This document shows positions 19,908-58,424 of a stretch of DNA of 64,000 nucleotides, piece after piece. Origin of the DNA: a virus; IMG/VR virus record IMGVR_UViG_3300000651_000003, positions 33,309 through 97,308 of that record; one strand, given 5' to 3'. How positions within the stretch are numbered: the first letter of the stretch is position 1; each line of letters begins with the position of its first letter. Under the pieces are notes generated by a model, which had not been told where the DNA came from, made no database searches, and saw nothing but the letters and a program-made list of their open reading frames with translations. A program made the position numbers and the translations under genes.

Positions 19908-20537
19908 ATGGAATCTCTCGTAACAACAGTTACGGCAGCGGAACCAATCCGCAATCCTCCTACGCCTTCAAAGTTAGAAGGCATGCAGATTACGAGGTCT
20001 GGGCGTAGCTGGTGGGCTGTTAGATATCAATCGGGACGAGTTATCAATGAATGGGCAACGCTACAATTCACTAAACTATTCACTCCTCTAGGACCTGCAC
20101 CTACATCTCGCTGGGAAGACATTTCAAAACAAAACATCAATGGTCTCTATCTGTTTTGCCCGAATGGTAGAGTGGGTGCACTTGAAGGTGATTACGAGTA
20201 CTTCCAATTGAAGGTGGGTGGTGCTCATGCGGTATTCTCATTTGGGAATCGGCCAGTAAAGGTAAAGGACAAGCATATTAGAGCTCATATCATAGGCAGG
20301 GTAGTAGGCGAAAATGGCGAGTGCGAATGTTACGCTTGGGAGTATCAGGAAACACCTTATTCAACATTCTTTTGCCCTCGGTGCGGAGGATGTGGTAGAA
20401 AAAGAAAATCTTGCCCGGGCTGCGGTAGCCAAGAATTGCGGCGAGACCCACTAATACTTTTTCGAGATAATGTGACCAACATGGCCTATGAGCAGATAGG
20501 GACGATTTCTCTGGGCCATCATACAGGAATCAGGTAA
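19908..20537 (+). CDS. Zinc-ribbon hypothetical protein
   Basis: 209 residues. The C-terminal third contains CPRCGGCGRKRKSCPGCGSQ, four or more CxxC-type pairs that should bind zinc. The N-terminal part is a Trp- and Tyr-rich domain (SGRSWWAVRYQSGRVINEW). Starts at the ATG adjoining the preceding stop without its own strong ribosome binding site. The role is unknown; it is the last gene before the large non-coding block. Confidence 0.55.
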   Translation: MESLVTTVTAAEPIRNPPTPSKLEGMQITRSGRSWWAVRYQSGRVINEWATLQFTKLFTPLGPAPTSRWEDISKQNINGLYLFCPNGRVGALEGDYEYFQLKVGGAHAVFSFGNRPVKVKDKHIRAHIIGRVVGENGECECYAWEYQETPYSTFFCPRCGGCGRKRKSCPGCGSQELRRDPLILFRDNVTNMAYEQIGTISLGHHTGIR

Positions 20538-20539
20538 TT

Positions 20540-21295
20540 GCGCTTTCTGACGATCGAACGATCACCAAGGTGTTTAAGTATGTTCCACAATGGGGCGGGG
20601 GCAGAAAGAACTGAGATTAGCTCAACAGGATACGGTGCTTGGCGAGTGACTCTTCCCGTGAATCGTTCGGTCTTCTGAGAGCGTACAGCCGGATAAAGCC
20701 GCTCCCGGCCTAATCTATAGAAAGGACTCACTGATGGTTAGGTCAGTGATTGATTGAGAGGCCGACATCACAGGGATTGTTAGGCGAAAAAGGATGAAGA
20801 AGAGAGCGAAGTATGACAGCCAAAGCCTGCCCCGGTGGGAAAGGGCGTAACGACCTTGATGGCCTTGTCGGGGCAGGAAATTAAAATCGATGCTTTGTGG
20901 TGATTGAATTTGGCAATGACCAGAGAGCAGCCAACTCTCAAAGAATCAGGTACGCGAGCACGGCCTGATGCTTCGCTTGAGTGAGGTGAGCGAAGGTGAT
21001 CTTTTACAACTCAGCGTTGTGCTGAGTTCTAAGTGGTTATAATTTACCACGATTTGGCGTGTCCGGGTGTTGCAACACTCGGCCTATTTCAAGCCGGGGC
21101 AAAAGAAGATGCTGCTTTAGGGACTCCACATCGCTGTCTAATGCTATCGGTAAAGAACTGGGTATGTGTTTTGATTGAGGGCGACTGAGTCTTTATCGGT
21201 AAGCATTCGTTTTTAGTTGAAAGACTAAAAATTGTCTTAAGCGTAGTTGGGAGCGGTAGGTGGAGAATGAAGCATTTTGCCGCTCTCAACTTCAA
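20540..21295 (+). ncRNA. Candidate large structured RNA
   Basis: About 750 bases with no credible gene but many complementary segments: 20552-20562 with 20662-20672 (11 pairs, one G-U); 20565-20569 with 20638-20642; 20688-20692 with 20705-20709; 20728-20734 with 20743-20749; 20826-20834 with 20869-20877 (9 perfect); 20971-20977 with 20989-20995; 21008-21015 with 21021-21028 (8 perfect); 21033-21037 with 21046-21050; 21063-21070 with 21075-21082; 21141-21145 and 21151-21156 with 21190-21206; 21210-21217 with 21224-21231; 21246-21256 with 21280-21290 (11 pairs, one G-U). Nested and tandem helices of this density suggest a large ornate phage RNA of the GOLLD or ROOL kind. Strand is inferred from the neighbours. 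Identity with a known class was not tested. Confidence 0.6.
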
Positions 21296-21309
21296 AAAAA
21301 AAGGAGTTT

Positions 21310-21759
21310 ATGAAAACACCACTGATTATAGTTGCAGTAGTGATAATGATTCTCGCGACGTTAGCGGGAATTTCTCTTGCTCGTAAACGAGCTTCACTGC
21401 TACATATTCCAAGATTCGCGATCACATATACTAAGGAAAACGGACTCAGCGCGATGTCGCCAATGCCGTGGTCAGACCCTGAAGAGTTAGTAATTGATGT
21501 GAATTTCGTTGACTACAAGCCTCACTGGATTGCATTTGAGTTTGCAGGTGATGAGCTGCGGGAAACGTTAGTTCAAGCATATGACAAAACTGGATCTTTG
21601 ATAGAAACTCAACAAATCACCAAGCTAGACAAGGATAGGCGACTGACTGCACAACAAACAGGCTACAGGCAGTACCGGTTCACTCGCCTAAGCGGCCCCG
21701 ACGTTCGCATTACAGGAATCTTTTTTGATTCAGTACCACCAGAACAAAGACGAAGGTAA
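21310..21759 (+). CDS. Membrane-anchored hypothetical protein
   Basis: 149 residues from the ATG behind aaggag (an upstream TTG at 21277 would lie in the last RNA helix and is unlikely). The N-terminal segment TPLIIVAVVIMILATLAGISLA is a signal anchor. The rest is a mixed domain with DPEELVIDVNFVDYKPHWIA and a beta-rich end, and a terminal EQRRR. Probably exposed outside the inner membrane. It may pair with the lipoprotein gene just downstream. Confidence 0.55.
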   Translation: MKTPLIIVAVVIMILATLAGISLARKRASLLHIPRFAITYTKENGLSAMSPMPWSDPEELVIDVNFVDYKPHWIAFEFAGDELRETLVQAYDKTGSLIETQQITKLDKDRRLTAQQTGYRQYRFTRLSGPDVRITGIFFDSVPPEQRRR

Positions 21760-21766
21760 AAACTAA

Positions 21767-23332
21767 TTGAGACGCAAGATCGCATTAGTAGTCGGGTTTG
21801 TTTTGTTGTTTGCGGCCCTGCTTGATGGTTGTAGGAAAAAGGTAATCCCTCCCTCAGAGCCAAGCCCGACACCAGCCCCAGAGAGTTCTCCATCTCCCTC
21901 TCCTTCTGAAACTCCGTTTATCGAACATGAAGTGATTGGCCCAGTGCCAAGCGTGAAGCAGAAAGTGCAGCGTTCATCGGCCGCAGCTGCGACACCAAGC
22001 GCAAGTCCCTGCACACCAGCACCGCCAAAAGATCCGAATGCGAGCTATACGATTAGGGCAGGAGTAGTACAGCAGTGGGCAAACTGCTCTATTGTTATCT
22101 TGTTCGATGGTGATAGCACTGCAACGACATTAGGATTAGCTATGTCAGGGCAAGACACAACGCCAAGCATCGGGCAACATGCAACACTCTACTACTATCA
22201 AAACAATGTTTATCTGGCAGCGTTTCCGTCGGCTCCGTTTGTAGGTCCATCTCCTACTCCCACGCCTCCCTCGCGAGCGGTGCAAGGAGTCGTAAGAGTA
22301 GCCGGTGCACCGTTCCAAGGACCAATGATTATCAATCGGCAGGGCAGCACGGTAGCTCAAATCACAGGTACAGCAGCAGATGGTACATTTTCATTCTCAA
22401 GTTCGGTTATCGGCTCAACGCTTGAAGCCAGCTATGGCGCATATCTTTTTAATACAGTTGTTGTAGATAGTTCGTCGCCTGCGTTTGTTCTGAACGGAAT
22501 GCCGCCCCCTACGCCGACTCCTACACCGATCCCCAGCCCCACTGCAACACCTACACCGACGCCAACCCCCGGGCCGTCTCCAACGCCTACTCCGACACCG
22601 GTGCCGGGTTTATACTTGTCAGGTGGCACTTTCTATTCGGGTGGCGGTCAATTCAACTACACTTACATTCAAGTACTCGACGCGAACCGAGTTGAGTTGT
22701 GGCGTTATCAAGAACAGGATTCAACTTATCTATACCCGTTGACGGCTAATGGCAACTACATAGTCAGGCCGATGATCGAGATTTGGAACGGGGAATACAA
22801 CGCCCAGCCGACTGAATATCAAGTCAGCGTATGTGGTCAGCCGGTGAGTAATTTGAACTTTACGATTGGACCGTCAAGCAACTACCCGCTTGGTAGCCCA
22901 ATAGTGGTGCCGTGCGCTAGCCCATCTCCTACACCAACACCTAGCCCAACGCCATCGCCAACTCCTTTGCCTACTCCTACACCAACACCGACCCCGACAC
23001 CCACGCCGGTGCCTACTCCTAATCCAACGCCTAGCCCATCTCCAAGTCCTATTCGAGATGTAATACCGCCAACTATTTCGATAACGTCCCCGGGGAAAAC
23101 AGTGACGAGAAAAACCGACGTAGTATTTTCAGTAAACGCGAGTGACAATGTAGGAGTGACGTCTGTTGGATTCTTTGTAAATGGAACGCCAATAGGTTGG
23201 GTATATACAGCCCCTTATCAAGTTACATGGCATGTTCCGCCGCCAGCCAATACGAATTACACCTTAACTGCGGTGGCCCGAGATGCTGCCGGCAATGCCA
23301 CTACGACTACTTTAACGGTCACAGCAAGATGA
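21767..23332 (+). CDS. Putative lipoprotein with Pro-Thr linkers and Ig-like domain
   Basis: 521 residues from a TTG start 7 bases after the previous stop. The N terminus is a signal peptide (ALVVGFVLLFAALLDGC) with a lipobox-like LDGC, Asp at -2 being atypical. Two central beta domains are separated by long linkers made almost only of Pro, Thr and Ser (about residues 245-285 and 383-430). The C terminus (DNVGVTSVGFFVNGTPIGWV) is an Ig-like domain of the Big_7 type. This architecture is typical of secreted bacterial surface proteins, which is unusual for a phage; superinfection exclusion or a virion appendage are possibilities. Confidence 0.65.
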   Translation: MRRKIALVVGFVLLFAALLDGCRKKVIPPSEPSPTPAPESSPSPSPSETPFIEHEVIGPVPSVKQKVQRSSAAAATPSASPCTPAPPKDPNASYTIRAGVVQQWANCSIVILFDGDSTATTLGLAMSGQDTTPSIGQHATLYYYQNNVYLAAFPSAPFVGPSPTPTPPSRAVQGVVRVAGAPFQGPMIINRQGSTVAQITGTAADGTFSFSSSVIGSTLEASYGAYLFNTVVVDSSSPAFVLNGMPPPTPTPTPIPSPTATPTPTPTPGPSPTPTPTPVPGLYLSGGTFYSGGGQFNYTYIQVLDANRVELWRYQEQDSTYLYPLTANGNYIVRPMIEIWNGEYNAQPTEYQVSVCGQPVSNLNFTIGPSSNYPLGSPIVVPCASPSPTPTPSPTPSPTPLPTPTPTPTPTPTPVPTPNPTPSPSPSPIRDVIPPTISITSPGKTVTRKTDVVFSVNASDNVGVTSVGFFVNGTPIGWVYTAPYQVTWHVPPPANTNYTLTAVARDAAGNATTTTLTVTAR

Positions 23333-23649: not shown

Positions 23650-24447
23650 ATGAGCCTTGAAACAATCATGCAAGGAATTGTCAGTAGATTCTTGCCACAA
23701 CCTCAGGCGGACAACCAAGATGACATTCTTCGTCTATCTCGGTACAAAGACGCCTACATACTTCCGGTTGTTCGGAAGAATCACGCCCTTGCGGATGAAG
23801 GCTCCTACTTTGTAACTAACAATGCTCAGACTGCGATCGCTGGAGATACATCAGTAGCGTTCACCGCCACCAAGCCTACCATCTGGATTTTCAACTCGGA
23901 CTCCCCGGGCAACCAGTCAGCCAAAAGAATTCACCTTGACTACATTTACTTGTTGTCAGGAGGCACTGCATATTCGAATGCCACCTCGAATACCGGGTTC
24001 TTCTGTGCAGTAGTGATTGATAATCCATCAGCTGCAACGACAGGTGGTTCCGATTTAACTCCTAACATAGTTTGTCCAAACATTGATGTCAGCAAAAAGG
24101 CTTCGATTGCTACTGTAAGGTATGGCGCCCTGACCGCTCCTGCTGCAACCCAGAACGCTAGAACGATTGTTGGTCAGAGATTGCTGCGCGCGCCAGTTTC
24201 AGGTACTGCAATCACATTGGCCAACGTCGACCAGTTCATGTTGAACTTCGGGGGCGTGGAACCCAATCTTGCGCTTCCTAATGCAGCATCAGCGACCGTG
24301 GAAGCTAACGCAGTTGGCCGCATGTTGCATCTGCCCCCAGTTGTGATAGGCCCCGGCCAGTCGGCATTTATTTACCTATTCATGGTAGCAAACAGCGCTG
24401 GGGTTGGTGGAACGATGTACCCTGAAATCGCATGGTGGGAGAGATAA
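23650..24447 (+). CDS. Structural-type protein, paralog A
   Basis: 265 residues, ribosome binding site aaggag. It is a close relative of the next gene: shared blocks include LPQ.QADNQ, LADEGSYFVTNN, GG.DLTPNI.CPNIDV.KK, FGGVEPN.ALPN and a final PEI.WWER. Beta-rich, with no signal peptide. Conserved short Pro/Trp loops suggest a jelly-roll-like virion protein such as a decoration or fibre component; family not recognised. Confidence 0.6.
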   Translation: MSLETIMQGIVSRFLPQPQADNQDDILRLSRYKDAYILPVVRKNHALADEGSYFVTNNAQTAIAGDTSVAFTATKPTIWIFNSDSPGNQSAKRIHLDYIYLLSGGTAYSNATSNTGFFCAVVIDNPSAATTGGSDLTPNIVCPNIDVSKKASIATVRYGALTAPAATQNARTIVGQRLLRAPVSGTAITLANVDQFMLNFGGVEPNLALPNAASATVEANAVGRMLHLPPVVIGPGQSAFIYLFMVANSAGVGGTMYPEIAWWER

Positions 24448-24451
24448 CAAA

Positions 24452-25276
24452 ATGGAGCTTCTACAACAAGCGAAGGGGCTAGTCAGCAGAGTACTGCCAC
24501 AGGCCCAAGCCGACAACCAAGTAGATACTATACGCCTCTCTCGGTTTCAAGAGGTGTACGGGATCCCGATCGTTCGCAAGCAGCACGTACTCGCTGATGA
24601 AGGCTCGTACTTCGTGACGAACAACGGGCAGGCCGCGATCACAGCTCAGGTCTTACAGCAGAATGCCACCTCCATCGACCCTACCAAACCAACGCTGGCG
24701 ATTTTCAACTCTGACTCCGACGGCAATGCTGCTGCGAAGAGAATTTTTCTTGATTATGTGCACCTGCTTGCTGGTGGTACTGCATACTCGGTCGGCGCTG
24801 CGGCAGTTCAGGTGGCAATGCTGTTGACCATTATCATTGATGCTCAAGGCGGAGCCTCTGGAGGAACAGACTTAACTCCTAACATAATCTGCCCGAACAT
24901 TGACGTAGGGAAAAAGTCATCTCAGGCAGTAGTAAGATTCGGAGCCTTGACTGCACCCGCTCTGTCAGCAAATAGTCGTCAAGTGGTAGGAGCTCGGTTA
25001 TTCCGCATGTGCCTGAGTCAGGGAGCTAGCGCGAACCTGTCTGTCGCTAACCTTGACTTCTGGCATATGAACTTCGGTGGTGTTGAACCGAACATGGCTC
25101 TTCCCAATCCCGGTTCACCCACTATCGCAACTAGCATGTGGGGTTCGAATATGTGTCTGCCCCCAGTAATTCTTGGCCCCGGAGACTCGATGTGGATGTA
25201 CATAAGTGTGAATGCATCTGCCGGCACCGTAGTAGCTGGAAACTTGATCCCAGAAATTGGTTGGTGGGAACGGTAA
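24452..25276 (+). CDS. Structural-type protein, paralog B
   Basis: 274 residues from the ATG just after the previous stop; an in-frame start at 24404 would overlap paralog A and is rejected. Same domain as paralog A over the whole length, so the pair arose by tandem duplication followed by wide divergence. Both copies keep the C-terminal WWER, arguing that both are functional. Followed by a strong terminator. Confidence 0.6.
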   Translation: MELLQQAKGLVSRVLPQAQADNQVDTIRLSRFQEVYGIPIVRKQHVLADEGSYFVTNNGQAAITAQVLQQNATSIDPTKPTLAIFNSDSDGNAAAKRIFLDYVHLLAGGTAYSVGAAAVQVAMLLTIIIDAQGGASGGTDLTPNIICPNIDVGKKSSQAVVRFGALTAPALSANSRQVVGARLFRMCLSQGASANLSVANLDFWHMNFGGVEPNMALPNPGSPTIATSMWGSNMCLPPVILGPGDSMWMYISVNASAGTVVAGNLIPEIGWWER

Positions 25277-25338: not shown

Positions 25339-28300
25339 ATGGCTCTCTTAGATTTTGTACAATTTCACACCAATCGAGACACTACGGGATCGAACGTAAA
25401 CACGTTCTCCAGTGCCGTAACGAACGGCAGTGTGATTGTCGTCGATATACTATTTGAGACCTATTATGACGATGTTACCAGCCTCACTGACAACAAAGGT
25501 AACACCTACATCAGGGCAAGTCACCAACAGAATGGCAGTGTTTGTGCGCTTGCCACATATTATTGTTTGAACGCTGTTGGCGGTTCCTCATTCGCGATCA
25601 CGCTTGCTAATAATCTAGGGAGCGCCTTTCCGACGGTTACCACTATCCATGAATATCTAGGCGATGCGAGCGTCAAGTTTCTAGCAGATTTCTGTGCGGC
25701 CGGCGGCGCGGGAGTCGGCGTTCAACTAAATAACGCATCTCCGGCGATAGTTCATGGTTTTGGTCAGAGTGCTACTGCACAGCCAGGAGCCGGTTCGGGA
25801 TTTACTATTCGTGAACAGTTTCATTCCGTTCAATACCATTCAACTGAAGACCAAGCTGTAAGCGGTAGTCAAACCTCTGTGACTTTTACCAGTGGAGGCT
25901 ACGATACGGCTGTAGGTGTGTCGTTTGGCGTGGGGCCGAAAATTTCCACGTTATACATCGATCCGGGCGGCGACGCTGATAACTTTTTCAGTGCTGTCAA
26001 CAACGGCGCGGACATTGCGCAGGACACTTCTGTCAAAGTGCAAGGGATAGGGTCGTACCGTTTTGATTCCACAGCTGGGAACGTAGCTGCAAATGCTGCT
26101 TGTTACAACGTTCCCGCCCCTATGGGACTCGCGTGGGATTATCGCTTGAACTTTTGGTTTCGATATGACTCCCAACCTACAGGCAGAACTACGATTCTGC
26201 TTGTCTCAAGCCTTGGCGGAGGTCGGCAGTTCGAACTAGTGGTTAATCCTAGCGGGGCTGGCGTGACCGTCGGGTTAGACGGCGCTAGCCATGTCACGAC
26301 CAGTGACGGAGCCACAGTGCTCTCCGTTAATACGTGGTATCGCATCAGCGTTGCCGTGGTCGTGCATTCAATTAACAACCAAGAAACCTATCTATTCATC
26401 AACGGGACTCAGGAGCTTCATGTCACTTCCATCTACACTGGAGATAGAGTCCCGAGCTACTTCTTTTTTGGCTGGGCAGAAACTCCGGGCGCAAGCAAGA
26501 AGTGTTGGTTTGATCAGCTCTACGTTGATGATGGCGGATATCAATTCACCGACGTTGGAGATGTTCGCAGCACAGCTAAACTCCCGACCGCCGTCAACGC
26601 AAATAACTTCGACACGGTTATCGGCACGGGTGCAGTCAACGAGCGACCTGCCAACGCTAGCAATGGAATGCAACAGGCCGGGAGTTCACAGGTATCTCAA
26701 AATTACAATCTGGAAACGATAGGCTCCGGCGATATTGATATCTCGAATCATCAAATCTACGGATACATGGGATGGGCGGCTGCAAATAGAGCGGCTGCTA
26801 CAGGAACGCCAAAATTTACAGTCAATGGGATCGATTACTCGACAGCGTTACCTGCTGTCGCAGATCCCAGTTGGGGTATTACCCAACCAGTTAGCAGCGC
26901 GAGTTATCCGACAGCGGCCGCCGCTATCGGTTTAGTCAGCACCGGAACAACCGACGATACGATCCTATATGAATGCGGAATCGTGATCGCCTACAACCCG
27001 GTAGCAACCCCTTCACCAATTCGGCGCGGGGTTTTTGGCGGTCTGCTACTTGCGCTCTCTTCTCTGTTGGTTCCGGGGTCATGGGTTAATGCAGCAACTC
27101 GGTTCAAGATATATGGCACCACATGGGCTTCTGCTGCTACAAGGTTTATCGTACAGGTAATAGGATTCAAAGACGCTGCTACCAGATTCAAACTATTTGG
27201 TATCACGTTCAGAGATGCAAATACTCGTTTTATTCTGTGGGTCCGAAACTATGTAGATGCTGCAACCAGATTCATTCTACAAGTCCGTGGCTACAAAGAC
27301 GCATCCACTAGGTTCAAGATGTATGGCATTACTTGGGCCAACGCTGCCACGCGGTTTGTGTTGAACGTACGCAGCTACAAGGATGCTGCTACTAGGTTTA
27401 AACTATGGGTACAAGGATACAGGGATGCAAGTACGAGATTTATTCTCCAAGTCCGCAACTATGCAGACGCCAGCACTAGATTTGTTTTAACATCGGCTAA
27501 CACAACATGGAAAAATGCAAACACTAGATTTATCCTCTGGGTCAGGGGGTTCAGAGACGCCAATACCAGATTCAAGGTGGTGGTGCAGGCATACCGAGAT
27601 GCAGCTACTCGATTTAAATTGACCGTACAATCTTTCAAGGATGCAGCGACTCGGTTCAAGTTGATCGTGCAAGCTTACCGCGACGCGTCAACGCGTTTTA
27701 TCCTGACCGTCAGGGCTTACAAGGATGCAGCGACTCGTTTTGTGCTGACGTCAAGAAGCTACAAAGATGCTAATACTCGTCTCAAACTATATGGCATCAC
27801 ATACAGAGATGCAGCCGCAAGGTTTGTTCTAATTGTGCAAGGCACATCTTTCAAAGATGCTGCAACTAGGTTTAAGCTAAGCGGTATCACATGGAAGAAT
27901 GCTTCTACGCGCTTTAAAGTCACTGTACTTACATTCAGGGACGCTGGCTCCAGATTCATCGTAATTGCAAGAGCATTCAGAGACGCGAGCTCTAGATTCA
28001 AAGTAACGGTGCAAGCTTACCGAGATGCGTCAAGCAGGTTCAAAGTTACTGTCAGAGCATACCGAGATGCTGGTACAAGGTTCATCACAATCGCAAGAAA
28101 CTTTGCTGATGGCAAAACAAGGTTTAAGGTTTCTGTGCGGAGCTTTAGAGATGGTTCTACAAGATTTAAAGTAGCCACTTTACTACAGTACCGCAATTCG
28201 TTCACTCGGTTCATCTCAGTGGGTGGCAACAGCAGAAATGTGAATTGCAGGTTTGCTCTTATTACAGTTCCACCCGGGTATAGAAAAGCAGTGGTGGACC

Positions 28301-28374
28301 CAGAGTATAGAATAACAACTGTACCACCACAGTTGCGTTTCCCGATCGTAGATAAGGAGGGCCGACCATCGTGA
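25339..28374 (+). CDS. Large tail-appendage protein with LamG-like domain and 28 TRF repeats
   Basis: 1011 residues. Residues 1-205 form a beta domain (FHTNRDTTGSNVNTFSSAVT), 207-400 a concanavalin/LamG-like domain (LNFWFRYDSQPTGRTTILLV), 400-570 a linker domain, then about 28 repeats of a 14-residue unit with consensus (F/Y)(K/R)DA(A/S/N)TRFKLxVxx. A non-repeated end follows (PEYRITTVPPQLRFP). There is no ribosome binding site; the ATG follows a terminator by six bases, so how it is expressed is unclear. It ends in a GTGA overlap with a fibre-adaptor-like gene, suggesting a tail fibre or spike stalk. Confidence 0.7.
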   Translation: MALLDFVQFHTNRDTTGSNVNTFSSAVTNGSVIVVDILFETYYDDVTSLTDNKGNTYIRASHQQNGSVCALATYYCLNAVGGSSFAITLANNLGSAFPTVTTIHEYLGDASVKFLADFCAAGGAGVGVQLNNASPAIVHGFGQSATAQPGAGSGFTIREQFHSVQYHSTEDQAVSGSQTSVTFTSGGYDTAVGVSFGVGPKISTLYIDPGGDADNFFSAVNNGADIAQDTSVKVQGIGSYRFDSTAGNVAANAACYNVPAPMGLAWDYRLNFWFRYDSQPTGRTTILLVSSLGGGRQFELVVNPSGAGVTVGLDGASHVTTSDGATVLSVNTWYRISVAVVVHSINNQETYLFINGTQELHVTSIYTGDRVPSYFFFGWAETPGASKKCWFDQLYVDDGGYQFTDVGDVRSTAKLPTAVNANNFDTVIGTGAVNERPANASNGMQQAGSSQVSQNYNLETIGSGDIDISNHQIYGYMGWAAANRAAATGTPKFTVNGIDYSTALPAVADPSWGITQPVSSASYPTAAAAIGLVSTGTTDDTILYECGIVIAYNPVATPSPIRRGVFGGLLLALSSLLVPGSWVNAATRFKIYGTTWASAATRFIVQVIGFKDAATRFKLFGITFRDANTRFILWVRNYVDAATRFILQVRGYKDASTRFKMYGITWANAATRFVLNVRSYKDAATRFKLWVQGYRDASTRFILQVRNYADASTRFVLTSANTTWKNANTRFILWVRGFRDANTRFKVVVQAYRDAATRFKLTVQSFKDAATRFKLIVQAYRDASTRFILTVRAYKDAATRFVLTSRSYKDANTRLKLYGITYRDAAARFVLIVQGTSFKDAATRFKLSGITWKNASTRFKVTVLTFRDAGSRFIVIARAFRDASSRFKVTVQAYRDASSRFKVTVRAYRDAGTRFITIARNFADGKTRFKVSVRSFRDGSTRFKVATLLQYRNSFTRFISVGGNSRNVNCRFALITVPPGYRKAVVDPEYRITTVPPQLRFPIVDKEGRPS
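27082..28260 (+). repeat. Array of about 28 degenerate 42-base coding repeats
   Basis: Each unit encodes about 14 residues with an invariant (T/S)RF core and usually a preceding DA(A/S/N). A few units are longer (GITWANAATRF, TSANTTWKNANTRF). The DNA copies differ strongly in synonymous positions, so the array is old and under protein-level selection; it is not a recent tandem expansion. Confidence 0.85.
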
Positions 28375-39863: not shown

Positions 39864-39909
39864 CAATACTACCCGTAACTGATTGAAAATAAAGCGGAAA
39901 AAATACCTA

Positions 39910-39939
39910 TTGACTTCTGCTAGGCATTCAAATTAGACT
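39910..39939 (+). promoter_or_regulatory. Rightward promoter, TTGA-N18-TAGACT type
   Basis: TTGACT (39910-39915), 18-base spacer, TAGACT (39934-39939), then ctcggccca just before the GTG at 39947. The same arrangement, with the same spacing and flanking ctc.gg, occurs at 56470-56499. Transcription should start close to the GTG, giving a leaderless message. Confidence 0.55.
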
Positions 39940-39946
39940 CGGCCCA

Positions 39947-40297
39947 GTGAGAAATGCTAATAATAATAGACCTGTTATGGTTAGGCCCAAGGGCCGGCTG
40001 CTACTCTATTTAAGACAAAAGCGCCGCATGCCAGAGCCTAACGATTATCGATGCCCCACTCAAAGGGAAGTTGAAGATACAGCGGGTATTCCCGAACGCC
40101 GATTATCGTTTTATGAGAATGACAAACGGCCGTACTTGGCTCCTCTGGATCACATGATTGCCCTTGCGTCTTATTATGAGATGCCAGTCAGAGAGTTAAT
40201 AGAACCAGAGAGCCTTGACCAGTGCAAGACTCTAACCAAGTTCCTACTGACCACTCTTGATTTCACCGACGAGGAATTAGCCAGATGTCAGACATAG
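39947..40297 (+). CDS. HTH (XRE-like) transcription regulator
   Basis: 116 residues from GTG; an ATG ten codons on is an alternative, and neither has a ribosome binding site, fitting leaderless expression. The region PTQREVEDTAGIPERRLSFY followed by ENDKRPYLAPLDHMIALASY is a helix-turn-helix of the XRE class. The C-terminal 35 residues are probably for dimerisation. It lies between divergent promoters and a palindromic site, so it likely controls the early switch. Confidence 0.7.
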   Translation: MRNANNNRPVMVRPKGRLLLYLRQKRRMPEPNDYRCPTQREVEDTAGIPERRLSFYENDKRPYLAPLDHMIALASYYEMPVRELIEPESLDQCKTLTKFLLTTLDFTDEELARCQT

Positions 40298-47148: not shown

Positions 47149-47267
47149 GTGACTTGCAATTCTTTGTGCAGAGCATCAGAGTCAGTTTCGAAATCTTCTG
47201 TTTTGTGGTGATAATACTTTTCCTTGTATTCGCAATCGTCTTGCCGTTTTGGAACAGGAGCAAATAA
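47145..47267 (+). CDS. Single-span membrane mini-protein
   Basis: 40 residues. It starts in an ATGA overlap with the polymerase stop and ends in a TAATG overlap with queD. A hydrophobic span (IFCFVVIILFLVFAIVLPFW) and a short basic tail. Its seamless fit between two certain genes supports it. Function unknown. Confidence 0.6.
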   Translation: MSDLQFFVQSIRVSFEIFCFVVIILFLVFAIVLPFWNRSK

Positions 47268-47674
47268 TGTACACAATAACTAAAGAATTCCATTTCGAAG
47301 CTGCTCACCACTTGTACGGGTTGCCAGAAGGCCACCAATGCGCTCGGATGCATGGACACTCATACCGAGTGGAAGTAGAATTGGCTTCTCCCAAACTTAA
47401 CAGAGTGGGTTTTGTTGTTGACTATGGCGAGCTTGACGTATTCGCTACGTACCTGAAAGAAAACTTCGATCATCAGGACCTCAATTTTGTGCTACAAAGA
47501 CTGTCGAAAATCCAAAACATGTGGTACAACGCAACAGGCGGCGATGGTATGTATAATCCTACTGCAGAAAATCTTGCCCGGGGATTTTACCTTTGGTGTA
47601 AACAGCATTGGAAAGAGACTATAGCTGTCCGCGTCAGCGAGACTCAAAAGACTTGGGCGGAACACCGTCCATAG
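47267..47674 (+). CDS. queD: 6-carboxytetrahydropterin synthase QueD
   Basis: 135 residues from the ATG with aggag six bases upstream. Zinc-binding histidines in FEAAHHL (His15) and MHGHSY (His29, His31), catalytic Cys25 in QCARMHG, then NPTAENLA and a final VSETQ, all typical of QueD. It converts dihydroneopterin triphosphate to 6-carboxytetrahydropterin, step two of preQ0 synthesis, between FolE and QueE, which are encoded nearby. Confidence 0.92.
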   Translation: MYTITKEFHFEAAHHLYGLPEGHQCARMHGHSYRVEVELASPKLNRVGFVVDYGELDVFATYLKENFDHQDLNFVLQRLSKIQNMWYNATGGDGMYNPTAENLARGFYLWCKQHWKETIAVRVSETQKTWAEHRP

Positions 47675-48932: not shown

Positions 48933-49594
48933 CCCTGAAGGTATCTGAGGTATTTTACTCGTTGCAGGGAGAAGGTGCCCGGGCTGGCGAGCCATCGATA
49001 TTCATTCGACTGCAAGGGTGCTCTGCAAAATATGCTTGCGCTCGGTCAGGAGTAGTTTGTGATACAGAGTTCGAATCCGGCAAAGAGATGACCCTTAAAG
49101 AATTGGACGACACCATCTATAATGTTGAGGTGCGAACTGTGGCAGGAGCCACCCTGCGACCATGGTGGATCGTCTGGACTGGCGGCGAACCCCTCGACCA
49201 GTTGACTCCAGACATCCTGAGGTGGTTCAAAGACAAAAAGTACATGCAGGCGATAGAGACTAGCGGCATCAAATATATGTCGAATGAAATCTCTACCTTG
49301 CTCGACTGGATTGTCTGTTCGCCGAAGGTAGCAGAGCACATACTCGAAAAGAATTTCAAGGACGTCATCCGCAAGCATGAAGCTGGAAACGTTGACGAGC
49401 TGAGATATGTTCGTCACGCAGGCCAGCCCGGGGTCCCCGTACCTGCTCTACATGCTCAGTACTACTACCTGTCGCCCCATACTGACGGTCAGAAAATCAA
49501 CCAAGGAAATCTCCGACACTGCATCAAGCTCTGTTTAGAAAATCCAATGTGGAGGCTGTCTGTTCAGCAGCACAAGCTATGGCAGATACTATAA
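48920..49594 (+). CDS. queE: 7-carboxy-7-deazaguanine synthase QueE
   Basis: 224 residues, ggag eight bases upstream. The start VSEVFYSLQGEGARAGEPSI and FIRLQGCS are the QueE opening; WTGGEPLDQ is the SAM-binding GGEP motif; SPKVAEH and YYLSPHTDG follow the family. The cluster cysteines would be Cys34, Cys40 and Cys47 (C-x5-C-x6-C), not the common CX3CX2C. It converts QueD product to CDG by radical SAM chemistry. Its 3' end overlaps folE. Confidence 0.88.
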   Translation: MAEMTLKVSEVFYSLQGEGARAGEPSIFIRLQGCSAKYACARSGVVCDTEFESGKEMTLKELDDTIYNVEVRTVAGATLRPWWIVWTGGEPLDQLTPDILRWFKDKKYMQAIETSGIKYMSNEISTLLDWIVCSPKVAEHILEKNFKDVIRKHEAGNVDELRYVRHAGQPGVPVPALHAQYYYLSPHTDGQKINQGNLRHCIKLCLENPMWRLSVQQHKLWQIL

Positions 49595-50166
49595 ACCAAA
49601 AACCAGACATCGAGCACCAATACGACCTGTTAAAGATGTCGATAGCTGACACCTTGATTGCCCTCGGCCTCAATATTGAGTCTGAGGGGCTTAAACGAAC
49701 GCCGGCTCGCATAGCCAAGTTCTATCTTGAGTTCCTGCGACCCCCAGACTTCGAATTCACCGTATTCGACAATGATGGCAGCGACGAGATGGTAATCCAG
49801 AGTGACATAGAGTTTGCCAGTCTCTGCGAGCACCACGGCCTACCATTTATCGGCGCCGCAGCGATCGCATACATACCAGACGGTAAAATTGTAGGCTTGT
49901 CGAAGCTGGCTCGGTGCCTTGATACTTATGCTCGTAGGTTCCAAAATCAGGAACGCATTACCCGGCAAGTTGCTGATGCATTACAAGAGGCGTTGAATCC
50001 AAAAGGAGTCGCTGTTGTACTTAAGGCCCGGCACTTCTGCATCGAGATTCGCGGAGTGAGAAAGCGCGGTTCAATCACTACTACATCTTGTCTGACAGGA
50101 GTATTTAAAAACGACCCGGCTTGCCGCAATGAATTTCTATCACTAGCACGAGGAATGAGAATATGA
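49579..50166 (+). CDS. folE: GTP cyclohydrolase I (FolE)
   Basis: 195 residues from the ATG overlapping the queE end; a GTG ten codons upstream is possible. KRTPARIAKFYLEFL, then SLCEHHGLPFIG with Cys83, DGKIVGLSKLARCLDTYARR and ARHFCIEIRGV with Cys154 are standard GCH1 zinc and active-site motifs. It opens GTP to dihydroneopterin triphosphate, the first step of preQ0 synthesis. The C terminus is a complete type I core. Confidence 0.92.
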   Translation: MADTINQKPDIEHQYDLLKMSIADTLIALGLNIESEGLKRTPARIAKFYLEFLRPPDFEFTVFDNDGSDEMVIQSDIEFASLCEHHGLPFIGAAAIAYIPDGKIVGLSKLARCLDTYARRFQNQERITRQVADALQEALNPKGVAVVLKARHFCIEIRGVRKRGSITTTSCLTGVFKNDPACRNEFLSLARGMRI

Positions 50167-50889: not shown

Positions 50890-51027
50890 ATGGTCAGCAT
50901 ATTCAATCGCATACAAAATCTCTGGCGAGGTTCTTGGCTTTATTGTTTTACTCATCACCACGATCCTGTGCATACCATGGATGGCAGGATCTGGTGTAGG
51001 GTTTGTTTGAAATTCAGGTTGCTCTAA
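50890..51027 (+). CDS. Small CF-HHH-CxxC protein
   Basis: 45 residues filling the gap before queC. YCFTHHHDPVHTMDG and RIWCRVC suggest a compact zinc site. A second member of the same pattern is encoded at 63389-63532. No good ribosome binding site, but the repeated motif supports it as real. Confidence 0.5.
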   Translation: MVSIFNRIQNLWRGSWLYCFTHHHDPVHTMDGRIWCRVCLKFRLL

Positions 51028-51038
51028 AAGGAGGAGAA

Positions 51039-51761
51039 ATGGAACAGGGAAAGGCTGTGGTGCTTCATAGTGGTGGCCTTGACTCCACTACATTGCTTTA
51101 TTACATCAAGGGCATGGGATTCGAAGTTTACCCACTAACGATTTACTATGGCCAGCGGCACAGCCGGGAGATAACGTCGGCTGTTGAGATTTGTGCTACA
51201 ATGGGTATTCCAGAGCGGTTCAGAAAAGTTGACCTCGAGAGTCTGCAAAGCGTAATGCTAGGCAGTAGTCAGACAGACCGCACTGTAGAAGTACCCGAGG
51301 GGCACTACGCAGCAGACAACATGGCGATTACCGTAGTACCGAATCGCAACATGATTCTGCTGGCCGTCGCTACTGCTTATGCAATCAGCATTAAAGCGAA
51401 ACTTGTGGCCTACGCTGCTCACATCGGCGACCATGACCAGTATCCGGATTGCCGACAGGTCTTCATTGACCAATTAGCAGAAGCCATCAAGCTCTGTGAC
51501 AACAACCCACCGTATCTAATTGCACCCTTCAGTGGGTACTCGAAACAGCAGATTGCAGAGCTAGCCAACACTATCGGCGTGCCAATCGAGTTGACTTACT
51601 CATGCTACAAGGGTGAGGAAAAGCATTGTGGTCGTTGCGGGACTTGTGTTGAGAGAGCAGAAGCATTAAGCCTCGCAGGAGTGGAAGATAAGACTCAGTA
51701 CGTGGATGCAGAGTATTGGAAAGCGGTGACCAACCATGCAAATGCACAAGTTTCGCAATAG
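51039..51761 (+). CDS. queC: 7-cyano-7-deazaguanine synthase QueC
   Basis: 240 residues with aaggagg just upstream. P-loop SGGLDS (11-16), VPNRN (100-104), HIGDHDQYPDCR, and zinc cysteines 189, 197, 200 and 203 in CYKGEEKHCGRCGTC are all present. It turns CDG into preQ0 using ATP and ammonia and completes the pathway. The gene overlaps the transporter gene downstream by 26 bases. Confidence 0.95.
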   Translation: MEQGKAVVLHSGGLDSTTLLYYIKGMGFEVYPLTIYYGQRHSREITSAVEICATMGIPERFRKVDLESLQSVMLGSSQTDRTVEVPEGHYAADNMAITVVPNRNMILLAVATAYAISIKAKLVAYAAHIGDHDQYPDCRQVFIDQLAEAIKLCDNNPPYLIAPFSGYSKQQIAELANTIGVPIELTYSCYKGEEKHCGRCGTCVERAEALSLAGVEDKTQYVDAEYWKAVTNHANAQVSQ

Positions 51762-52515
51762 TCTGTGGTTCGCCATTACTTTGGTTGCATTCTACCTTGG
51801 TGCGATCGTGCTGGCGAACTACCTCATCACAAAATATGGTCAGGTAGCTGTGCCATTTGTGGCATTCGCTCTAATTCCATTTGACTTGATTGCCCGGGAC
51901 TTGATGCAAGACCATTGGAACTGGGTTCCCGGCAGAAGCAGAATGTACGTCGCTGAGAGAATGTCTGTGGTAATAGTGGTAGGTGCTGTCATCTCATATG
52001 CGACGGGAACAGGTTCATTCAGGATAAATGCTGCCTCTTGCTTGGCATTCATGGCAGCTGCCACTATTGACGCGCTGACCTACCAGTGGATGATACGGTA
52101 CGGGCGGATATTCCGCATTAACGCCGCTACCTTTACCGCTGCGGTGACTGACTCGCTCATCTTCGTGTTCATTGCATTCAGCGCAATTAACTGGCAACTA
52201 GTAGGATTGCAGATTGTTATGAAAATCTCGGGAGGGTTTGTCTGGTCATTGCTGCTGTACAAACTTTTTCGGCAGCGCTACGACCGAGTAGAGTTTGTTC
52301 CACCTATGATTTTCAAAAAAGAATACAAACCCACTTTCGACTATGCCCGATTGTTTGCAAAAGAGCGAGTAATCCAAGGTTCGTTTGTTGGTCCAGTGAA
52401 TTGTGGTCTGTGCTCAGGTAGTTCTAATACCGGGTGTCGTTGCCACTCCGCTGAAGGATTAGGCTGCGACATGCTTTGTCACGTAGACTACATTGGCAGG
52501 TTAGTTAGGAGATAA
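51736..52515 (+). CDS. VUT-family (YhhQ-like) preQ0/queuosine precursor transporter with Cys-rich tail
   Basis: 259 residues. About six membrane spans, with the VUT family opening YLGAIVLANYLITKYGQ, FALIPFDLIARD, and TFTAAVTDSLIFVFIAF. YhhQ-type members import preQ0 or preQ1. The last 60 residues are an extra cysteine-rich part (CGLCSGSSNTGCRCH, CDMLC) not usual for the family, possibly a zinc domain. Transport together with a full synthesis pathway would raise precursor supply. Confidence 0.75.
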   Translation: MQMHKFRNSLWFAITLVAFYLGAIVLANYLITKYGQVAVPFVAFALIPFDLIARDLMQDHWNWVPGRSRMYVAERMSVVIVVGAVISYATGTGSFRINAASCLAFMAAATIDALTYQWMIRYGRIFRINAATFTAAVTDSLIFVFIAFSAINWQLVGLQIVMKISGGFVWSLLLYKLFRQRYDRVEFVPPMIFKKEYKPTFDYARLFAKERVIQGSFVGPVNCGLCSGSSNTGCRCHSAEGLGCDMLCHVDYIGRLVRR

Positions 52516-57414: not shown

Positions 57415-57861
57415 ATGATAGAACACAAAGGCGATATCTGGACCTTCCGACAACCAGACGATCACGTAGTAATAACAACCAATAATACAATCAGGCGGGA
57501 CGGTGCTCTCGTCATGGGCCGAGGCATAGCCTTAGAGGCCTGTTCAAAATATCCTCGCTTGCAGTTCGAACTCGGCAATCGCATCAGGCAGTTTGGATTG
57601 AGAGTCGAACACATCAGGCCACACAAGTTAATAATCTTCCCAGTAAAATTCCACTACCGAGACTCGGCCGACATAAATCTTATACTTCGCAGTACCCTGC
57701 AATTGTTAACCTTGGCTGAGGAAATTGAAGGTCGCATTCTAATGCCGCGGCCCGGGTGTGGTTACGGTCACTTAGACTGGGCAGAAGTAGGGCCAATGAT
57801 GAATCATTATTTGACGAGCGACAAGTTCATAGTTTTCTCCAAAGACAAGTCTGCGAGGTGA
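57415..57861 (+). CDS. Macro domain protein
   Basis: 148 residues. HKGDIWTFRQ, then ITTNNTIRRDGALVMGRGIA and ILMPRPGCGYGHLDW are the binding-loop motifs of macro domains, which bind or hydrolyse ADP-ribose groups. A phage copy could reverse host ADP-ribosylation defences or recycle ADP-ribose phosphate. There is no clear ribosome binding site. The stop codon lies within a structured RNA element. Confidence 0.8.
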   Translation: MIEHKGDIWTFRQPDDHVVITTNNTIRRDGALVMGRGIALEACSKYPRLQFELGNRIRQFGLRVEHIRPHKLIIFPVKFHYRDSADINLILRSTLQLLTLAEEIEGRILMPRPGCGYGHLDWAEVGPMMNHYLTSDKFIVFSKDKSAR

Positions 57862-57934
57862 AATCGGCTCCCTCGCAGTTGCCGCGCTCCCGGGAACGCT
57901 TTTCGGCATGGTGGGTGCGTTCCCGGTCGAGCCG
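57851..57934 (+). ncRNA. Pseudoknot-like RNA element
   Basis: Hairpin 1: CTGCGAGG (57851-57858) / CCTCGCAG (57871-57878). Its loop holds CGGCTC (57865-57870), which pairs with GAGCCG (57929-57934). Hairpin 2: CCGGGAACGC (57890-57899) / GCGTTCCCGG (57917-57926), ten perfect pairs. The loop-to-tail pairing closes around hairpin 2, a compact pseudoknot. It spans the macro gene stop and ends 13 bases before the HNH gene. Confidence 0.55.
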
Positions 57935-57947
57935 GCTTGACAAAAAG

Positions 57948-58424
57948 ATGAAGCGGTCAGGATTCAAAAAACTATCTTACGAGGATGCCCTTATAAAAGC
58001 AGAGGCTACCCGGGCAGGGCAGAGGGCGAGAGCAGTGGGGAAAGCCCGGGAAAACGCTCGTAAAAGAGTGACTTCTGGCCTGAGAAAGCGGTCACCCAAA
58101 GCACAGGCAAACCAAAGCAGAGAACTAGCATTCACCAAAGCTGTTAGGGAACGAGATAGGTGTATGTGCAGATGGTTCTACCCAGATGGTAGTCGCTGCA
58201 CCTATCAGGATCCTAACATTACCGTTCATCATATCAACGAGCGATCGCAACGTCCAGACGAAAAGTTTAATCCCGACAATGGTGCGTGTATTTGTCCGGA
58301 GCATCACGATTACATGCACCATACCGTAGCAGGCCGAGAGCGTGGGAGGGTTCTTGGCCTGCTTGGTGGCGAGACTTACGAAAAAGCAATGAAAAGGAAA
58401 CGAGATGGAAGCCCTGTCGCTTGA
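57948..58424 (+). CDS. HNH endonuclease-like protein
   Basis: 158 residues from MKRSGFKK. Basic N terminus; cysteines 72, 74, 84, 114 and 116 plus TVHHINERS (His94/95), NPDNG and CPEHHDYMH (His119, 120, 124) form an HNH/zinc fold. It could be a homing-like, packaging or nicking nuclease; it is not inside an intron as far as I can see. Overlaps the next gene by 20 bases. Confidence 0.75.
   Translation: MKRSGFKKLSYEDALIKAEATRAGQRARAVGKARENARKRVTSGLRKRSPKAQANQSRELAFTKAVRERDRCMCRWFYPDGSRCTYQDPNITVHHINERSQRPDEKFNPDNGACICPEHHDYMHHTVAGRERGRVLGLLGGETYEKAMKRKRDGSPVA

Follow-up and report, generated by a model that had tools for sequence, protein, structure and literature searches.

In the row of structural genes of an uncultured tailed phage, one stretch of about 770 bases contains no gene, which raises the question of whether it encodes a large structured RNA and, if so, whether that RNA belongs to a known class. 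The original prediction, made from a 64,000-base window (bases 33309-97308 of the 97,308-base virus record IMGVR_UViG_3300000651_000003), proposed a member of a class such as GOLLD or ROOL, or of a new class, expressed late together with the structural genes. Judging from fold modeling, we consider it very probable that the block is a functional structured RNA of some sort.

A gene-free block in a row of structural genes

The record carries genes for terminase subunits, a portal protein, and a head maturation protease, and the proteins of the window include a tape-measure/transglycosylase protein, tail assembly and tail proteins, a DnaB helicase, and a DNA polymerase. The block (positions 20538-21309 of the window) sits in a + strand row of genes for tail proteins and other probable structural components, and both of its flanking genes lie on the + strand. 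It spans the interval from the stop codon (20537) of a 209-aa gene (19908-20537), the product of which contains two zinc-ribbon-like CxxCG motifs and falls into no family above the cut-off, to the start (21310) of a 149-aa gene (21310-21759), the product of which has a hydrophobic N-terminus and no family match. Directly upstream of the latter, the sequence contains a probable + strand ribosome-binding site (aaaggag, 21300-21306). The claim of a gene-free block, originally placed at 20540-21295, holds: the longest open frame anywhere in 20538-21309 comprises 76 codons, none of the five longest ORFs across the block has a Pfam match at E ≤ 1, and gene calling by codon usage finds no gene in it. 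However, its extent is nearer 20538-21309, as the first predicted helix follows the stop codon at 20537 directly and about 16 bases separate the last one from the ATG at 21310. Promoter- and terminator-like sites occur in the block at frequencies within two standard deviations of chance with none being convincing, and no terminator-like site is found at its 3' end.

This is the sole large gene-free stretch of the window. Other large gaps left by the first gene-calling pass hold ORFs, such as an HNH-like ORF at 57756-58424, inside which lies a second structured gap (57862-58404) that was rejected for this reason. The remaining gap of 418 bases (39867-40284) is located at the junction of divergent gene rows. 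Downstream of the block, a 521-aa protein (21767-23332) combines long proline-threonine repeats with a C-terminal bacterial Ig domain (Big_7, E 1e-13), and tandem paralogues of 265 and 275 aa (23650-24447 and 24449-25276; 55% identical), which are absent from PHROGs and Pfam and found in 78 other viral loci, are possibly virion proteins. In a 1011-aa protein without a family match (25339-28374), a short "DAATRFKL"-like motif recurs about 20 times or more and makes up the C-terminal half. Elsewhere in the window, 7-deazaguanine pathway genes encode a 6-pyruvoyl-tetrahydropterin-synthase-like (QueD-type) protein (47249-47674), GTP cyclohydrolase I (49549-50166), QueC (51003-51761), and a Vut_1-type (YhhQ-like) transporter (51736-52515), which suggests that the phage DNA is modified.

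The predicted fold and its strand

Folding energy beyond that of dinucleotide shuffles is a general criterion of functional structured RNA, and the + strand of the 772-nt block has a minimum free energy of -276.5 kcal/mol compared with -236.3 +/- 8.2 in 100 such shuffles, none of which folds as well (z -4.9; a separate fold tool with 20 shuffles yielded z -4.8). Among the 139 completed 772-nt windows of the same 64 kb (164 were planned), the block ranks first with z -5.15 (mean -0.87, sd 1.3). In windows of 250 nt it scores well without coming first, so the signal resides in the block as a whole. The predicted ensemble is well defined, with a pair probability above 0.9 for 35% of the nucleotides as opposed to 17 +/- 8.5% in shuffles. 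The original expectation of many long helices stands in part. The minimum free energy fold contains 24 helices of at least 4 pairs (251 pairs, 35 of them G-U) and perfect stems of at least 9 pairs are in excess (9 versus 3.5 +/- 1.8 in shuffles, with 1 shuffle in 100 having as many), whereas the 15 perfect stems of at least 8 pairs are near chance (11.7 +/- 3.6, with 20 of 100 shuffles reaching 15). Similarly, four of the helices named at the outset (20552/20662, 21008/21021, 21210/21224, and 21246/21280) are all present in the fold with mean pair probabilities of 0.84-0.97, but the fifth, 20826/20869, is outcompeted by long-range pairing.

The predicted structure is divided into five + strand domains, each of which folds better than its own shuffles, four of them at or below 1 in 200. 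Domain 1 (20538-20686) consists of a 25-pair helix, 20539-20565/20658-20685, which contains 20552/20662, has a pair probability of 0.95, and closes two or three small hairpins. Domain 2 (20701-20766; z -2.0 on the + strand, 4/200 shuffles as good) is a hairpin, 20706-20715/20756-20764, enclosing an inner hairpin, 20728-20735/20742-20749. Domain 3 (20801-21139; z -4.5, equal on both strands) is a multibranched core of about seven hairpins or arms inside the long-range helices 20801-20816/21125-21139, 20820-20826/21114-21121, and 20828-20846/21082-21101 (17 pairs), with pair probabilities mostly of 0.8-0.98. Domain 4 (21140-21207) is a 28-pair arm with 7 G-U pairs, and the 3' part (21208-21295) comprises two hairpins, one capped by a GAAA loop (21209-21232) and one of 19 pairs (21243-21293). 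When folded alone, domain 1, the inner core, and the 3' part keep the structure seen in the whole block. The local hairpin 20826-20834/20870-20878 (20826-20878, + strand) reaches -28 kcal/mol by itself, but it excludes the 17-pair helix, in which 20828-20846 pairs with 21082-21101, and imposing it makes the molecule as a whole about 15 kcal/mol less stable. It is possible that these two exclusive pairings of 20826-20846 constitute a switch or a folding intermediate. The core also contains a palindromic UGCA hairpin loop within 21064-21081, which together with the GAAA-capped hairpin 21209-21232 would fit a folded-RNA function like that of GOLLD or ROOL, while proving nothing.

The - strand of the whole block likewise folds better than chance (z -3.6), because a complementary sequence must also fold well. 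Despite this, three domains exhibit a clear + strand preference: the 5' domain 1 (z -3.0 on + and -0.9 on -), the 28-pair arm (-5.5 and -2.2), and the 3' hairpins (-5.1 and -3.7). The first two lose most of their significance on the - strand, since their G-U pairs turn into A-C mismatches. Hence, a + strand RNA is favored, which would be read in the same sense as the structural genes on either side, in line with the original argument that G-U pairs fit RNA rather than DNA function.

Known families and relatives

Searched with the 4227 covariance models of Rfam, neither the window nor record bases 1-34000 contain a family at the gathering score. The window remains empty when the cut-off is relaxed to E ≤ 0.1, and at E ≤ 10 the hits in the block are all noise. 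OLE, HEARO, and group I and II introns are all without a match at these thresholds and scopes. The models of GOLLD (RF02032) and ROOL (RF03087) found no match in the whole record (GOLLD at E ≤ 10), whereas the known ROOL of L. salivarius pMP118 was recovered with the same tool at 130.4 bits, a positive control that covers ROOL only. Consequently, the predicted membership of GOLLD, ROOL, HEARO, or OLE is unsupported. The structured RNA itself is well supported by its energy, modular domains, and strand preference, and a new class, represented by a single sequence, is possible. As far as sequence comparison reaches, the block appears to lie outside the catalogued families and would at present be a class of one. 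A literature search across mainly open-access journals yielded no account of an RNA of this kind. There are no tRNA genes in the window or record bases 1-34000. The 15-mer TAGCTCAACAGGATA at 20618-20632, the only copy among 408 loci, resembles a tRNA D-arm, but a tRNA origin of the block was rejected, as ARAGORN detects no tRNA and the 15-mer has a different use in the fold.

Covariation among homologues would be the usual way to prove such a structure. DNA comparison and single-sequence covariance models found no homologue of the block in phages, plasmids, related viral records, prophage loci, or sampled genomes. The models, built for three domains, recover the window itself and yielded nothing convincing in 50 whole related records or more than 100 further loci; the same was true of 396 bacterial genomes from one phylum, searched with one model only. 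Failure to find a homologue with single-sequence models says little about whether one exists. Three IMG/VR motif scans with 14-16 exact bases returned chance matches only, in the case of the first (14 GC-rich bases, a poor choice) among the matches listed. The 209-aa neighbor and a 1500-aa tail protein led to no relatives, and the 78 loci reached through the 265/275-aa paralogues, at most 47% identical, all lack the block. According to its terminase, the virus appears nearly alone in the sequence collections: one relative from another metagenome (L201) is 99% identical and stops an estimated 10 kb before the block, judging from its coordinates, and none of the others exceeds 56% identity. Among structured gaps in relatives, that of L183 was rejected as coding (an endonuclease-like frame), and those of L196, L137, and L186 hold long open frames by eye. 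A distant relative carries a non-coding 650-base block (L134:17451-18100; z -3.6 on + and -4.8 on -) directly after a small zinc-ribbon-like ORF; it was rejected as a counterpart, having neither similarity to the block nor an Rfam match.

Possible functions and comparison with known large RNAs

On balance, and with moderate confidence, we lean towards the block encoding a large stand-alone structured + strand RNA of about 750-770 nt, probably made with the late genes. This is argued by its non-coding character, the z of -4.9 and first rank among 139 windows, the defined ensemble, and the strand shared with the flanking genes. It is also argued by the five domains folding below their shuffles, three of them + strand-biased and three retaining their fold alone. 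On the other hand, the block is a single sequence without a homologue, its - strand also folds beyond chance overall, it reaches the ribosome-binding site as a leader would, and a strong fold is no hallmark of such RNAs, given that the pMP118 ROOL has a z of -0.2.

Chief among the alternatives is a long leader that acts in cis on the downstream gene or genes. It would be kept in the mRNA and control translation or stability of the 149-aa message, for instance by hiding the ribosome-binding site or through a switch between the exclusive pairings of 20826-20846. The block directly adjoins the AAGGAG and ATG, its 3' end has no terminator-like site, the two pairings of 20826-20846 are mutually exclusive, and the GGAG is predicted to pair weakly with 20702-20705 (probability about 0.8). 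However, this site-hiding pairing consists of only 4 pairs, and no Rfam riboswitch or leader family matches. Furthermore, leaders of ordinary phage genes are much smaller than 772 nt with at least five domains. We regard a leader as unlikely, yet more probable than the remaining alternatives. It is rather improbable that the block is non-functional filler, in other words a spacer or a decayed gene whose good fold arose by chance. The lack of a homologue to this single sequence and the near-chance count of perfect stems of at least 8 pairs are what such filler would give, but a z near -5 over 772 nt, the top rank among 139 windows, four of five domains with no more than 1 shuffle in 200 folding as well, and the lack of a gene remnant in Pfam all argue against it. 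We give little credence to a DNA-level element, such as a replication origin or a packaging or recombination site, the inverted repeats of which would act as DNA, either double-stranded or extruded. Inverted repeats can abound in phage origins, and those of the block do fold on both strands, but on the - strand, where G-U pairs are lost, the 5' domain and the 28-pair arm fold much less well, the location is inside a same-strand gene row, and no direct-repeat family suggestive of iterons is present. Least likely of all is an intron or other selfish RNA inserted between genes: a large structured non-coding insert missing from all relatives found would be compatible with one, but group I, group II, and OMEGA-type Rfam families are lacking in the block even at E ≤ 10, the position is between two intact genes rather than inside one, and no reverse transcriptase family occurs among the 44 window proteins scanned.

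If the block does encode a stand-alone RNA, this would be made late, within or cut from the structural-gene transcript; neither a convincing promoter nor a convincing terminator of its own was recognized, and it is position and strand only that point to late expression. The RNA would then work as a folded molecule in its own right, for which the nearest model is the compact multi-copy particles of GOLLD and ROOL. More tentatively, and with clearly less confidence, it may represent a new class of large ornate phage RNA that is unrelated in sequence to GOLLD and ROOL, is made with the virion genes, and forms an RNA particle of its own.

Few large ornate phage RNAs are known, their function is unknown, and the prevalence of RNA cages among large natural RNAs has been stated as an open question (PMC12286853). 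An unrelated RNA of the same size in a row of phage structural genes would be an independent test case, and the RNA is short enough for in vitro synthesis, chemical probing, mass photometry, and cryo-EM. Taken as modeled here, the block is a promising candidate for a large phage RNA of a new kind.

How does it compare with the known systems? OLE and HEARO are similarly large structured bacterial RNAs, but neither has an Rfam match in the block and no partner gene of either was identified. ROOL is a phage or prophage RNA of 543-659 nt without a known protein partner, and GOLLD is phage-encoded, on the 800-nt scale, with separable 5' and 3' domains and expression tied to phage production; solved members of GOLLD and ROOL form cages of 14 and 8 copies, respectively (PMC12286853), and both RNAs often adjoin tRNA islands. 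The GOLLD cage is homo-oligomeric and its RNA is expressed during lysis, and the multimeric cage of ROOL includes pseudoknots. The block differs from ROOL in lacking a model match, in lying outside any tRNA island, and in its nested fold, which is far stronger than that of the pMP118 ROOL by the same measure, and yet the two are of comparable size and complexity. With GOLLD there is no match in sequence or to the covariance model with its conserved 3' region, and GOLLD is often found beside or containing tRNA genes, whereas the block resides in a phage record and has no tRNA gene in or near it. Nevertheless, like GOLLD, the block is phage-encoded, lies on a scale of about 800 nt, and is predicted to arrange many helices in separable domains.
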